From positions 1-64,000 of the forward strand of contig JABLUY010000059.1 in assembly GCA_013306675.1 (NCBI GenBank): a DNA stretch of 64,000 nt, written 5' to 3'. The translations under genes and the position numbers were made by a program. Shown here piece after piece: positions 54,613 to 64,000 of this stretch (position 1 is its first letter; each line of letters starts with the position of its first letter). Source of the stretch: Thraustochytrium sp. TN22 (taxonomy: Eukaryota; Sar; Bigyra; Thraustochytrida; Thraustochytriidae). A model generated the notes under the pieces. It did not search any database. It had not been told where the DNA came from and saw only the letters and a list, made by a program, of their open reading frames with translations.

Positions 54613-55343
54613 GTGACTGACATCCATGGATATGCCCCGCGCGCACGACATGAGGAGAGACTGCCAGAGCGCCGCACACGGTCGACCCTTCGACCTGTGA
54701 CTTCTGTTTCTGCCTGCTCTTGCTCGTGTCGCTTGCCCACCTGATCTTCTTTACGATTTCGCCTGTCGATGCACTTTCCGTATTCTACATCTAAACCCGA
54801 ACCTGCTTTACCTTCTGTCTCGCAAGAACTGTGTTTCTCACCTCTCGCTTGGAATCGACGCAGGGCGTCTCTTCAGCCTGACATCTGTCTCTGTCTCAAG
54901 TAGGGCTAGATGCAGCCGACCCTGTTGCCCTGGCCTTCTTTGCCATTTGTCCGGGCCTCAGAGTCAGGCTCCCTTCAAATACCTTTTGTTGTTGCGGTCG
55001 TCTGGCTGGCTGATGTAAGTGCTGGCAGTGCTGCGCTCAGCTGCTGTGTGTTTGGTTCGCAACGATGATAATGCGCTCCTCGCGTGCGTTCTGCTTGCCA
55101 GTGTCATGTGTCCGTGCTCGCCTGCTGAGCTGAGCTGAGCTGAGCTGAGCTGAGCTGAGCTGAGCTGAGCTGAGCTGGGCTGGGCTGGGCTGGGCTGGGC
55201 TGGGCTGGGCTGGGCTGGGGCGGGGCGGGGCGCTCGCTCGTCACGAAGTTAAAGTTCATGCGCACCGTGACGCGACACTAGGCCTCGGCCTACTTGAACC
55301 ACAACAACACGATCCGAGCCAACCGTCGAAGGAGTAACTACTT
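54613..55343. other. 3' flank of AP2 paralogue 2, moderate GC
   Basis: About 730 bp with T-rich, lower-GC sequence than the rest of the window (about 54700-55060), then the pentamer repeat at 55126-55232. Probably 3' UTR and spacer. No gene. Confidence 0.5.
55126..55232 (+). repeat. TGAGC/TGGGC pentamer array with G-quadruplex potential
   Basis: Ten TGAGC units, then eight TGGGC units, then GGGGC units, without interruption. The second half has many GGG runs spaced by two bases on the + strand, which satisfies the usual G-quadruplex pattern. The sharp switch from A to G variant halfway suggests two rounds of expansion. Confidence 0.9.
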
Positions 55344-58448: not shown

Positions 58449-60857
58449 TGACCGGGCATGCCGGACTCCGCTTTTGGTAAAGCAGGCCATGCCGCATTCG
58501 TTGCGGCTGCACGGGACACGATGCAACGAGTCCGAGCCGGGGGCTAACGCACGACAAGCCGCACGGCTTCTTCAGGCATAAGCCGAGGTCAAACTGCGAG
58601 TGGGGTCCAATTACGCCATGCCGTGCACTCTCTGGTCGCTGCGTTGTGACAAGGCCCTTGTCCGAGCACCCATCAGCCCGCCTGGCCCGCTACAAGGGCT
58701 CCAACCTCGAGTGATACGCCGCCATCGTCATCCTCTTCGTGCTCTACCGCCGCATGCGCGCTTGAGCTGGACTCCAACCCCGCTCCTTCCTCTGCGATGA
58801 TCTTATCTCATCATTCAGGTCCGAAGGCTGCTCAAATGAATGTATAAATGAGTGAAAGTCTCGTCCATGGCTGCTGCCGCCTCCTCGACTCGGCTTTCGT
58901 CGCTTCGGCCACCGATGCATGAATGTGGGAATGCCGCTGCCGTCGCATCGACCATGAGTATCGTCGCCCCGACTCGACTTTCGTTGCTTCGACGACCACT
59001 TCCGGCTAGCCTAGCCGCCTTCGTGATCGGCTCGCTCTCATTTATCGTTGTGCCCGCGCCACCTATCCGCGAACCTGCTCGGCTTTACCCTCGACTTCAC
59101 CGTCGCCTGGGCTCGGCCTCACCCGTAGCTCCTACTGATCTGTGGGCGAACACCAGGCTAACGAAGGCACGCGACGCTGCGCGAGCGAGCGCGCACGAGC
59201 AAGGTAAATACGAGGGAAGGCGCACAAGCGAGACCGCACGGGCGAGACCACGCTGGCGAGGTTGCGCTGGCGAGGCCATGAACGCTACGCAGGCCAGTGC
59301 GAGCATAATCGGCTGCTTATCTTCCCAAGGCGGGCCGGGCGGGAGTTATCTATAGCCGGGTGGCGACGCCCAGTGGCCACCTCGGCAGAGCGCGAAGAAG
59401 CGACTTGGCTCCACGGCGCCATGACGCGCAATAATAGCACGGTCAGGCGCCGCGCCGCGCGGCAACCTGACGCAGAGTGGAGGAGCGACCAGACGGAAGC
59501 GCGACACAACGCCGGCACGGTGAAGCTGGTGCGAAATGCTGTCACGCGCTTTTCGTGTAACGGGTGAGGCAGAAGCACGCAGGCGCCTTGTGGCGGCCAA
59601 GCTTGATGCCCGATGGACTCCGCACGAGGCAAGCTGAGGTGGGCAGAGGAGAAGTGCTGAACGTGAAGCGCTTTGCGCAAGCTCTGGAGCCTGGCGCTTG
59701 GCGCCCTAGGTGCGGCCCTCGTTTCGCGCGCCGCAGCGACGCCAACGACAATGCGTCCGCGCTTGGCGTCCGGCGCTGGCCCCGCCACCCTTGCCGCGCT
59801 CTTTCACGCGCAAGGCCCTGCCACCGCGTCGCTGGCCTGGGCTGGCTGGGTGGCTGGCTGACTGACTGACAGTTGCCCCTGGGACGGCCTGGGGTTTGTC
59901 CCCGTGCCTCGCTCTCATGGGAAAAACTAGGGCGTGGCGAGGCGAGGCAAGGCGAGGCGAGGCGCGGACGAGGCGAAGCGAGGCGCGCGCGGGCTCGACG
60001 CGCCTTCACAGCCAGGGCAGGTGGGCGTGGCAGCGGCTTACGGCACCCAGCGTGCCCGTCTTCGCCGCGCTCCCGGGGCAGAGCTGTGGCCGCAAAGGCC
60101 CGGACGGCGCCGGGAATGGGACGCGGGGCGCGGGACACACGTCAAGCAGGGCATCGAGATGTAGCATCAGGGCGACGCAACGGGGGGCATGGTGCGAAGT
60201 AGGTCGCGCTTCCCCAGTACGCGTCGCGCTTCGCTCGTGTTGAAGGCACATCCATGCACGGAGACCAAGCCGCAGACGCAGCCTTCTGGTGCCGCATGCA
60301 CCGGCCCGGGCGGTTGCACGCAAGTTTGAAAGTTCAAATGCCGGGCAGCACCTTGTGCGCGTCCGCTTGGGCCAAGCAGGACCCGTTGCACCACGCACCG
60401 TGAGCTGCCGGCCCAGACCGGAGACGACTGGACGGCGAGCGGGCGCAGCGACGCGGCGAGCGAGCACGAGAGCGCGCGCACGGGCTTCGTGGACGGCGAG
60501 ACGGCGGCGGCGGGCGGCGTAGCGGTGGCGAACGAGGCGGGCGGCACGAGGCTGGGGGAGGGCAGGGCGCTCTTTGCGCGCTGGGACACGCACGCAACAG
60601 GGCGGCGACGCGACGCGACGCGACAGGGCACGGCACGGCGCAGCGACGTTGCGAGCGAGGGCTACCCCGCGCTCAGGGACTCCATAGACGGCGAGGTGGG
60701 CACAGCGGACGGCGTGGTGGTGGCGTACAACAGTGCGAAGGTGGCGGAGCTCAGGACTTTTGCGGTCGCGCGTTGCAGCACTTGAGCGGGCGGGAACCGA
60801 CGGCGTGGTGGCGGGGCAAGCCGCGGACCTCGCCTCTCTGCGCACGCGGCTGGCGGC
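58449..60857. other. 2.4-kb spacer with decayed-looking repeats before the repeat-protein gene
   Basis: 58450-59560 is of moderate GC and shows no gene. GGCGA-type pentamers occur at about 59934-59985. From about 60420 to 60850 three segments share a GACGGCG...GTGGTGGCG...GAG/GAC-CTC pattern at roughly 90-200-bp spacing (60489, 60693, 60799), in different reading phases, as if a repeat had diverged by substitutions and indels. A 98-codon open frame at 60489-60785 covers two of them, but I do not call it a gene. The stop TGA at 60783-60785 bounds the frame of the downstream gene. Confidence 0.45.
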
Positions 60858-63800
60858 ATGGCTGAGGCCGCCGAAGGCGCGGCGACAGCCGACGGCCGGA
60901 GCGCGGCGGACAACTTCGATGCGATGATGGATGCGGTCTTCTTCAAGGAGATGATGAATGGTGACTTCATTGACGCGGAGCAGCAGCACGGCCCAAAGGA
61001 GGAGTCGCGCCATGTGGATGAAGACGGCGACGGCGACCGTGACGGCAACCACGACGGCGACCGCGACGGCGGCCGCGACGGCGACCGCGACGGCGGCCGC
61101 GACGGCGACCGAGACGGCGACCGCGACGAGCAGTCCCGCGCCGAGCAGCCCCGCGCCGGTGGCGGGTCCGCCACCAACAACATCACCTACAACATCACCT
61201 ACAACACCTTCGTCAGCAACTACTTCAGCAACAACTTCTTCCCCGCCAGCTACACCACCTTCGACGACAACACCAGTACCTATGTGGTCTACAACTTCAT
61301 CATCTCCGGCTCCGGCTGCCCGCGATGCAGCTGCTTCGAGTGCCAGGCTGGGCCTGGCGAGTTCCCGGCCTGGCAGGGCGAGCGTTCGTCCTGGTGCGAC
61401 GACTCGGACTGGCGCAGCGAGCGCGCGCCCCGGCGCGACGAGCGTCCAACGTGGGATGAGCCTCTTGCCGAGACCATGTCTGTCGCCAGCTGGGATGTGG
61501 ACGCCTTCTCGTACCCTCGCGATGCTTCGCTCGGAACTGACGACGCGAACGGCATCGGCGGCGCTCTTGAGACGTCGAACCCGAACATCGAGAATGTTGA
61601 TGTCGCCGAGCGCCACCTCGAGGGCGAGGTGACGGAGGATGCGGAGACCGCCGTGGTCTCTGCGCGCGGCACTGGTCGCGACGTTGGAAAGGGCCAGGCC
61701 GCCACCATGGCGCTCGATCTCGAGGCTGAGCTCGAGCAGGACATTGACTTTGTCAAGACGCTTGGCCTCGAGGCTGAGCTTGAGCAGGGCGCGGAGACCG
61801 ACATTGTTTCCGCGCTGGGCATCGAGGGCGAGGTCAACCAGGACGCGAGCACTGCCTCGGCGCTGGACCTCCAGGGCGAGGTCGACCAGGGCGCGGGCAC
61901 TGCCACGACGCTGGACCTCGAGGCCGAGGCTGGCCAGGGCGCGGACGTCGCCGCAGCGCTGGACCTCGAGGCCGAGGCTGGCCAGGGCGCGGACGTCGCC
62001 GCAGCGCTGGACCTCGAGGCCGAGGTCAACGAGAGCGCAGGCACTGCCACGAAGCTGGACCTCGAGGCCGAGGTCAACGAGAGCGCAGGCACTGCCACGG
62101 CGCTGGACCTCGAGGGCGAGGTCGGCCAGGACGCGGACGTCGCCGCGGCGCCAAACCTCGAGGCCGAGGTCAACGAGAGCGCAGGCGCTGCCACGAAGCT
62201 GGACCTCGAGGGCGAGTTCAGCCAGGACGCGGATGTTGCCGCGGCGCTGGACCTCGAGGCCGAGGTCGACCAGGACGCGGATGTCGCCGCGGCGCTGGAC
62301 CTCGAGGTCGAGGTCGGCCAGAGCGCAGGCACTGCCACGGCGCTGGACCTTGAGGGCGAGGTCAACCAGAGCGCAGGCACTGCCACGGCGCTGGACCTCG
62401 AGGGCGAGGTCGGCCAGGACGTGGTCGCCGCCACGGAGCTGGACCTCGAGGGCGAGGTCGGCCAGGACGCGGACGTCGCCGCGGCGCCAAACCTCGAGGC
62501 CGAGGTCAACGAGAGCGCAGGCGCTGCCACGAAGCTGGACCTCGAGGGCGAGTTCAGCCAGGACGCGGATGTTGCCGCGGCGCTGGACCTCGAGGCCGAG
62601 GTCGACCAGGACGCGGATGTCGCCGCGGCGCTGGACCTCGAGGTCGAGGTCGGCCAGAGCGCAGGCACTGCCACGGCGCTGGACCTTGAGGGCGAGGTCA
62701 ACCAGAGCGCAGGCACTGCCACGGCGCTGGACTTCGAGGGCGAGGTCGGCCAGGACGTGGTCGCCGCCACGGAGCTGGACCTCGAGGGCGAGGTCGGCCA
62801 GGACGCGGACGTCGCCGCGGCGCCAAACCTCGAGGCCGAGGTCAACGAGAGCGCAGGCGCTGCCACGAAGCTGGACCTCGAGGGCGAGTTCAGCCAGGAC
62901 GCGGATGTTGCCGCGGCGCTGGACCTCGAGGCCGAGGTCGACCAGGACGCGGATGTCGCCGCGGCGCTGGACCTCGAGGTCGAGGTCGGCCAGAGCGCAG
63001 GCACTGCCACGGCGCTGGACCTTGAGGGCGAGGTCAACCAGAGCGCAGGCACTGCCACGGCGCTGGACTTCGAGGGCGAGGTCGGCCAGGACGTGGTCGC
63101 CGCCACGGAGCTGGACCTCGAGGGCGAGGTCGGCCAGGACGCGGACGTCGCCGCGGCGCCAAACCTCGAGGCCGAGGTCAACGAGAGCGCAGGCGCTGCC
63201 ACGAAGCTGGACCTCGAGGGCGAGTTCAGCCAGGACGCGGATGTTGCCGCGGCGCTGGACCTCGAGGCCGAGGTCGACCAGGACGCGGATGTCGCCGCGG
63301 CGCTGGACCTCGAGGTCGAGGTCGGCCAGAGCGCAGGCACTGCCACGGCGCTGGACCTTGAGGGCGAGGTCAACCAGAGCGCAGGCACTGCCACGGCGCT
63401 GGACTTCGAGGGCGAGGTCGGCCAGGACGTGGTCGCCGCCACGGAGCTGGACCTCGAGGGCGAGGTCGGCCAGGACGCGGACGTCGCCGCGGCGCCAAAC
63501 CTCGAGGCCGAGGTCAACGAGAGCGCAGGCGCTGCCACGAAGCTGGACCTCGAGGGCGAGTTCAGCCAGGACGCGGATGTTGCCGCGGCGCTGGACCTCG
63601 AGGCCGAGGTCGACCAGGACGCGGATGTCGCCGCGGCGCTGGACCTCGAGGTCGAGGTCGGCCAGAGCGCAGGCACTGCCACGGCGCTGGACCTTGAGGG
63701 CGAGGTCAACCAGAGCGCAGGCACTGCCACGGCGCTGGACTTCGAGGGCGAGGTCGGCCAGGACGTGGTCGCCGCCACGGAGCTGGACCTCGAGGGCGAG

Positions 63801-64000
63801 GTCGGCCAGGACGCGGACGTCGCCGCGGCGCCAAACCTCGAGGCCGAGGTCAACGAGAGCGCAGGCGCTGCCACGAAGCTGGACCTCGAGGGCGAGTTCA
63901 GCCAGGACGCGGATGTTGCCGCGGCGCTGGACCTCGAGGCCGAGGTCGACCAGGACGCGGATGTCGCCGCGGCGCTGGACCTCGAGGTCGAGGTCGGCCA
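60858..64000 (+). CDS. Acidic 16-residue-repeat protein (3' end beyond window)
   Basis: At least 1047 codons, open to the window edge. First ATG after an in-frame stop: MAEAAEGAATADG. Order: a short N-terminal segment (FDAMMDAVFFKEMMNGDFID); a DRDG/GRDG repeat (about residues 55-91); an Asn/Tyr/Phe-rich block with NIT repeats (NNITYNITYNTFVSNYFSNN, about 105-150); a Cys cluster C154-P-R-C157-S-C159-F-E-C162; a Trp/Asp/Arg-rich link; and from residue 284 onward tandem 16-residue units of the type LDLEGEVGQDADVAAA. Nine early units (two of 18 residues) are followed by five complete copies and one partial copy of a 7-unit, 112-residue (336-bp) block starting at 62151. The protein is strongly acidic, with no signal peptide or membrane segment. 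No family recognised. The + strand is chosen because its frame gives regular acidic repeats with a sensible unique N terminus; the opposite strand is also open across the repeats. Confidence 0.75.
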   Translation, partial: MAEAAEGAATADGRSAADNFDAMMDAVFFKEMMNGDFIDAEQQHGPKEESRHVDEDGDGDRDGNHDGDRDGGRDGDRDGGRDGDRDGDRDEQSRAEQPRAGGGSATNNITYNITYNTFVSNYFSNNFFPASYTTFDDNTSTYVVYNFIISGSGCPRCSCFECQAGPGEFPAWQGERSSWCDDSDWRSERAPRRDERPTWDEPLAETMSVASWDVDAFSYPRDASLGTDDANGIGGALETSNPNIENVDVAERHLEGEVTEDAETAVVSARGTGRDVGKGQAATMALDLEAELEQDIDFVKTLGLEAELEQGAETDIVSALGIEGEVNQDASTASALDLQGEVDQGAGTATTLDLEAEAGQGADVAAALDLEAEAGQGADVAAALDLEAEVNESAGTATKLDLEAEVNESAGTATALDLEGEVGQDADVAAAPNLEAEVNESAGAATKLDLEGEFSQDADVAAALDLEAEVDQDADVAAALDLEVEVGQSAGTATALDLEGEVNQSAGTATALDLEGEVGQDVVAATELDLEGEVGQDADVAAAPNLEAEVNESAGAATKLDLEGEFSQDADVAAALDLEAEVDQDADVAAALDLEVEVGQSAGTATALDLEGEVNQSAGTATALDFEGEVGQDVVAATELDLEGEVGQDADVAAAPNLEAEVNESAGAATKLDLEGEFSQDADVAAALDLEAEVDQDADVAAALDLEVEVGQSAGTATALDLEGEVNQSAGTATALDFEGEVGQDVVAATELDLEGEVGQDADVAAAPNLEAEVNESAGAATKLDLEGEFSQDADVAAALDLEAEVDQDADVAAALDLEVEVGQSAGTATALDLEGEVNQSAGTATALDFEGEVGQDVVAATELDLEGEVGQDADVAAAPNLEAEVNESAGAATKLDLEGEFSQDADVAAALDLEAEVDQDADVAAALDLEVEVGQSAGTATALDLEGEVNQSAGTATALDFEGEVGQDVVAATELDLEGEVGQDADVAAAPNLEAEVNESAGAATKLDLEGEFSQDADVAAALDLEAEVDQDADVAAALDLEVEVG
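61023..61130 (+). repeat. GACGGCGACCGC microrepeat encoding DGDR/DGGR units
   Basis: Imperfect 12-bp (and 6-bp) repeat within the repeat-protein gene, encoding alternating Asp-Gly and Asp-Arg pairs. Confidence 0.85.
61707..64000 (+). repeat. 48-bp tandem repeats organised into a 336-bp higher-order array
   Basis: Basic unit 48 bp (16 codons). Higher-order units begin at 62151, 62487, 62823, 63159, 63495 and 63831 (the last partial). Copies 2 to 5 share TTC at the Phe of LDFEGEV, where copy 1 has CTC, so the later copies expanded from the Phe-bearing type. Otherwise the copies appear identical to my reading, implying recent amplification or active homogenisation. Confidence 0.92.

Follow-up and report, generated by a model that had tools for sequence, protein, structure and literature searches.

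Coding potential of a long, repetitive frame

Does the open frame at the right edge of this DNA, most of which is built from 16-residue repeats, encode a protein, and if so, what kind of protein might it be? The window, by which we mean the whole stretch of 64,000 nucleotides that we analyzed, corresponds to contig C408:1–64000, from an assembly of 37.9 Mb in 453 contigs. Its GC content is 64–74% in 4-kb steps. On the plus strand, a frame that begins with ATG runs from 60858 to 63998, or 1,047 codons to the window edge, just as an earlier, sequence-only reading had described (at least 1047 codons). The nearest upstream in-frame stop is at 60783, there is no earlier in-frame ATG between that stop and the ATG at 60858, and the context of the start codon is GCGGCATGGCT.

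The frame stays open past the window edge, as far as C408:64440, for a total of 1,194 codons. The last readable codon is directly followed by 6,127 N (C408:64441–70567), which are likelier to be an assembly gap inside the repeat than sequence that was withheld, although either would read as N. So, the downstream sequence that the earlier reading had called for did lengthen the frame, but the N run hides its true end. A second copy of the gene, on contig C43, also breaks off in N (see below), and the protein's true C terminus is absent from both contigs. The antisense strand is open over the same stretch as well (1,330 codons, minus strand, window 60009–63998, across the array and the N terminus), so open length alone cannot choose the strand.

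We tested codon usage with a model built from 2,811 codons that lie within or near the Pfam domains of eight genes. In a leave-one-out control, the correct frame scored +0.32 to +0.68 bit per codon for all eight genes, and none of 40 wrong frames exceeded +0.044. Residues 1–285 of the plus-strand frame, at +0.402 bit per codon, fall within the range of the true genes, as does the N terminus of the C43 copy (+0.409 over residues 1–285). The other five frames scored −0.197 to −1.197, and the maximum among 2,000 base shuffles of this region was −0.37. The signal is uneven: +0.572 for residues 1–150 and only +0.150 for residues 151–285. No coding signal was found in 60006–60857 in any of the six frames.

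At 0.570, the whole frame ranks first among the 59 stretches in the window that stay open for 285 codons or more, and these include stretches that hold seven of the eight training genes. This top rank owes much to the array, which repeats a few codons in many copies. The array could not identify the strand by itself, since its antisense mirror frame scores +0.45. The 1,330-codon antisense stretch as a whole (window 60009–63998, minus) scores 0.181, probably because it mirrors the GC-rich sense frame.

The sequence-only reading had argued that the array is translated because its periods are multiples of three. Codon usage supports translation, but the argument from phase does not reach significance. 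Among non-overlapping tandem arrays, the period is divisible by three in 4/4 within the frame and in 21/40 of those with periods of at least 10 elsewhere in the window (Fisher p = 0.09; 35/64 if all of the window's outside arrays are counted). We also compared the 16 distinct repeat units with each other. There was no sign of purifying selection between them: pN/pS was 1.27 in the coding frame, 0.62–0.69 in four other frames, and 1.34 in the remaining one. This is a weak test, given the small number of units, their relatedness, and their bias at third positions. Overall, the frame is probably a protein-coding gene.

Anatomy of the predicted protein

The part of the protein that precedes the array (residues 1–251; 60858–61610, plus strand) comprises an acidic head, a DGDRDG tract that is encoded by a 12-bp repeat (61023–61128), a NITYNITYN stretch (residues 107–153; 47 residues rich in Asn, Thr, Tyr, Phe, and Ser), a CPRCSCFEC cluster, and an acidic stretch that contains Trp. 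The NIT repeats and the cysteine-rich cluster that the earlier reading had pointed out are thus both present in the plus-strand frame. No hydrophobic leader is visible at the N terminus on inspection by eye, so the suggestion of a surface protein is not supported.

The array begins with degenerate units of 34, 16, and 18 residues (61611–61814), followed by six single units of 16 residues (61815–62102). Then come blocks of seven units, or 112 residues and 336 bp, from 62103 to 64000 and on to C408:64440. Tandem Repeats Finder reported both levels of this order, with a period of 48 over 61812–64000 and a period of 336 over 61822–64000. The units are of the type LDLEGEVGQDADVAAA. There are 53 units, of which 16 are distinct; those upstream of 62103 are more diverged, and one of them has 18 residues. 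The array carries a net charge of −235 over 943 residues, or about one net negative charge per four residues.

Full blocks begin at 62103, 62439, 62775, 63111, 63447, and 63783, with the last extending past the window edge. Pairwise, they differ by 0 or 1 nucleotides: the four blocks from 62439 to 63447 are identical to one another, and the other two (62103 and 63783) match each other exactly and lie 1 nt from these four. A seventh block (64119–64454) has 21–22 differing columns, but 14 of its 336 positions are N, which leaves 7–8 real differences. The earlier description of seven-unit, near-identical blocks therefore stands, with at most 1 of 336 nt varying across six full blocks. Its count of five and a half copies is correct for the window (62103–64000 holds about 5.6 blocks), and the contig has six full blocks and a diverged, cut seventh. 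The near-identity of the blocks also supports the view that they were recently amplified. The copy number depends on the assembler, as the assembly breaks inside the array.

Elsewhere in the window, at 55124–55231, there is an array of the pentanucleotides GCTGA/GCTGG, with about 19–21 copies and 96–98% matches.

A second copy of the 5' half

Contig C43 encodes the same N terminus on its minus strand. There, the frame is open for 385 codons and then runs into 5,566 N inside the array. Over the first 1,155 nt of the frame (60858–62012), the two copies show five differences and no indel. Three of the differences are at first codon positions (K30E, A223P, and D295H) and two are at third positions. 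Of the stretches that we compared, the region in common is about 58675–71238 on C408 and 22446–12783 on C43; the part that lies 5' of the frame, as aligned to C43, is 58675–60857.

Within this region, mismatches per bin of ~200 columns rise leftwards overall, if unevenly, from 1 in the frame to 2–4 beside the start codon and 18 in the 58800 bin. (The leftmost bin, with 41 mismatches, straddles the edge of homology and was left out of the count.) To the right of the N run, the contigs are 90.7% identical over 686 columns, and no such gradient is seen near the run. Divergence that falls towards the array would fit gene conversion around the array.

Because their upstream flanks differ, the two copies are likelier to be paralogues than plain alleles. 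We did not favor the idea that the C43 copy is a plain allele, as the matches listed for the two upstream flanks in this genome include no second long copy of either (one search scored 40 of 115 candidates). It is possible that C43 is a haplotype with different flanks.

In C408, the N run is followed by an Arg-rich open frame of 168 codons. It resembles 11 places outside of C408 and C43 at E ≤ 0.001 (19 matches were listed at E ≤ 1), so we considered it as a shared C-terminal domain. We rejected this: no frame there is coding-like (the best score is −0.491), most near-identical copies of the family switch frame near residue 153 (although one family member, on C67, stays open across the full 277 residues that were compared), and the variable sites among seven family copies are spread over the codon positions (7, 10, and 10). 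The sequence past the N run belongs, as a divergent member (~70% identical), to a dispersed repeat of ~1.14 kb. Given this, and the lack of a coding-like frame, the 168-codon frame is probably not the C terminus.

Close copies of the dispersed repeat are about 97.5–99.6% alike and other copies are 75–88% alike; the repeat is apparently non-coding. It occurs on C67 (L034, L035), C409, C331, C153, C222, C111, C33, and C400. Two copies on C67 meet head to head (L034:6264/6265), and directly after the copy at L035:3046–4185 there is an inverted repetition of a 39-bp segment from the left end.

Searches for relatives

With the whole protein as the query, just three Pfam families were reported at E ≤ 1. 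Two of these exceed their cut-offs: Ntox25 (PF15530), with 40.2 bits over five stretches (cut-off 25), and DNAJC11_beta-barrel, with 35.6 bits (cut-off 27) and no stretch that passes alone. The third, pAdhesive_6, is under its cut-off. When we searched with eight units alone, Ntox25 fell to 17.1 bits (cut-off 25; profile positions 7–88 of 168), DNAJC11_beta-barrel was not listed at E ≤ 1, and the reversed and scrambled eight-unit controls had no Pfam hits at E ≤ 1. The whole-protein scores are therefore sums over copies, and we rejected membership in both families, as neither has a match over its cut-off without such summing. Matches to ClfA and SdrC are far under their cut-offs, and the four PHROGs that matched have no assigned function. 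We judged all of these hits to be driven by repetition and composition. Nor did shorter queries yield a family: the N terminus alone hit TrAA12, at 17.1 bits (cut-off 30.9), and residues 252–351 alone hit two Pfam families, both under cut-off.

No RTX, collagen, PPR, TPR, or ankyrin family was found in Pfam at E ≤ 1, and a sequence search of the PDB gave no match, so the earlier statement that the array is unlike these common repeats holds in both searches. With tblastn, we found no relatives in bacterial or archaeal contigs, in viral contigs, or in phages (residues 1–285 for the phages). In the organism's own genome, convincing matches to the protein of window 61155–61640 and to the array are confined to C408 and C43. 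The DNA of the N terminus also matches 27 other short stretches, every one of them through the DGDRDG-type tract. Excerpts of published work on solenoids, intragenic repeats, thraustochytrid repeats, and acidic repeats do not include this protein. As far as these collections and its own genome show, the gene is probably restricted to the lineage of this thraustochytrid-like protist, and its product is best filed as a new coding-minisatellite repeat protein.

Large PUFA-synthase subunits of the PfaA kind mark thraustochytrids. This genome has a PfaA-like PUFA-synthase frame of 3,044 residues at C124:26703–41142, with 2,539.7 bits (summed over pieces) against a cut-off of 1,010.1. None of 14 control genomes passed the omega-3 PfaA cut-off. 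Near this frame, on the opposite strand, a 2,083-residue frame has a partial match to the same family, and a 5,691-residue open frame at C410:25857–39995 matches the PfaA profile in part, over several stretches. The light-harvesting family PF00504 has no matches in the genome; of the 14 control genomes, only Synechococcus elongatus matches it.

Possible fold and role

To describe the pattern within the unit, we averaged hydrophobicity over 13 distinct units. The 180-degree moment is 0.399. When the 16 positions were permuted 20,000 times, 336 permutations attained this value (473 of 20,000 if any harmonic is allowed). The helical harmonic is ordinary (reached by 12,943 of 20,000). The alternation is imperfect (the unit has Gln or Glu at position 9 and Ala at position 14), and because the units share one ancestor, it is close to one observation rather than thirteen. 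The alternation suggests strands that would have Leu, Val, and Ala on one face and Asp and Glu on the other. This suggests in turn that the stacked carboxylates of such a solenoid would need cations.

In a plot of charge against hydropathy, the array (R 0.250, H 0.491; boundary 0.503) falls narrowly within the disordered range, which counts against a firm beta fold. Furthermore, an excerpt of one study states that AF2 confidently draws false solenoids for perfect repeats, some of them with stacked charges (PMC11795689). On that account, AF2 is unsafe for perfect repeats, and we commit ourselves, with modest confidence, to no more than a putative spacer or scaffold that would be acidic, bind cations, and be prone to beta structure, and whose N terminus would self-associate.

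How might such a protein have arisen and work? Unequal crossing-over inside the array would spread the blocks, and the two copies would stay alike in their 5' half through gene conversion. The protein would be intracellular, given that no leader was seen by eye. Its Asn/Tyr/Phe-rich segment may promote self-association, and its long tail, from its charge and its alternation of hydrophobic and acidic residues, may act as a spacer or scaffold that binds cations and tends towards beta structure, with little depending on the exact number of repeats. Our preferred reading, which we hold tentatively, is that this is a real, mostly repetitive coding gene, lineage-restricted as far as searched, and that it would make an acidic, cation-binding, beta-prone repeat protein.

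The closest competitor, which we consider quite possible if not favored, accepts a translated gene and denies the tail a specific fold or job: the array would be a neutral coding minisatellite that stays in frame and encodes a disordered acidic tail. The pN/pS of 1.27 among 16 distinct units, the position in the charge-hydropathy plot, and the presence of four separate tandem arrays in one frame, as in a slippage-prone gene, all agree with this. Against it are the gene-like codon usage of both the array and the N terminus and the non-random hydrophobic alternation, although units of one ancestor carry any pattern for free. A stronger form of doubt is that the array and the frame are non-coding, and that a GC-rich minisatellite is open by chance on both strands. 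Both strands are indeed open in the window (1,047 and 1,330 codons), the multiple-of-three periods are not significant, and purifying selection is not seen either among the units or in the differences between C408 and C43. Still, we think this improbable, since residues 1–285 score about +0.40 when the 40 wrong-frame controls reach at most +0.044 and the 2,000 base shuffles at most −0.37, and the whole frame ranks first of 59.

The gene could instead be the cargo of a large mobile element of ~12 kb, whose right end would be the dispersed repeat beside the N run. C408 and C43 share only about 58675–71238 / 22446–12783 of the stretches compared, there is no long second copy of either upstream flank among the matches listed, and the sequence past the N run comes from a dispersed family, of which it is a diverged member. 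However, this family is found elsewhere without the gene's N terminus, and a mobile element seems as improbable to us as a non-coding array. The locus contributes an orphan tandem-repeat protein whose repeats are ordered at two levels, as well as a second genomic copy; exchange around the array may keep the two copies alike. Should the acidic ladders fold, the protein would be a modular solenoid of natural origin, switchable by cations, from a group of protists that is used in biotechnology. If they do not fold, the gene would be a clear coding minisatellite whose tail tolerates near-free turnover.

Comparison with known systems

Coding minisatellite genes have a period that is a multiple of three, near-identical DNA copies, and diverged edge units. 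This locus shares all three features, and its array sits in a frame with gene-like codon usage. It differs from such genes in its two-level order of 7 x 16 residues and in having a second genomic copy that is nearly identical over the 5' half.

The RTX beta-roll has its own repeat motif and depends on Ca2+. The repeats described here are likewise acidic and could need cations to fold. In contrast, their unit length and motif differ from those of RTX, and Pfam has no RTX family match at E ≤ 1.

Bacterial ice nucleation proteins have 16-residue repeats that were modelled as a beta-solenoid, with the consensus AGYGSTQTAGEESSLT, a TxT motif in all coils, and SLT and a Tyr ladder besides, according to an excerpt of PMC9418140. 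On this partial account, the likeness lies in tandem units of 16 residues (48 bp) and in a long array that comes after an N-terminal part, and the alternating residues seen here would fit one unit per coil. The C-terminal domain has no counterpart in view because the end of the gene is missing. Unlike those proteins, this one has no match to an ice-nucleation family in Pfam at E ≤ 1. Compared with AGYGSTQTAGEESSLT, as given in that excerpt, its LDLEGEVGQDADVAAA-type unit has acidic positions and a seven-unit order, and TxT occurs in just two of the seven units of the block (AGTATA type). By analogy, the protein might be a eukaryotic, intracellular, ice-nucleation-like solenoid, which we think unlikely; it would be very long and made of 16-residue coils, would have unbroken Asp/Glu ladders in place of Thr, would fold or assemble only once a divalent cation had neutralized these ladders, and would be extended in steps of 112 residues.
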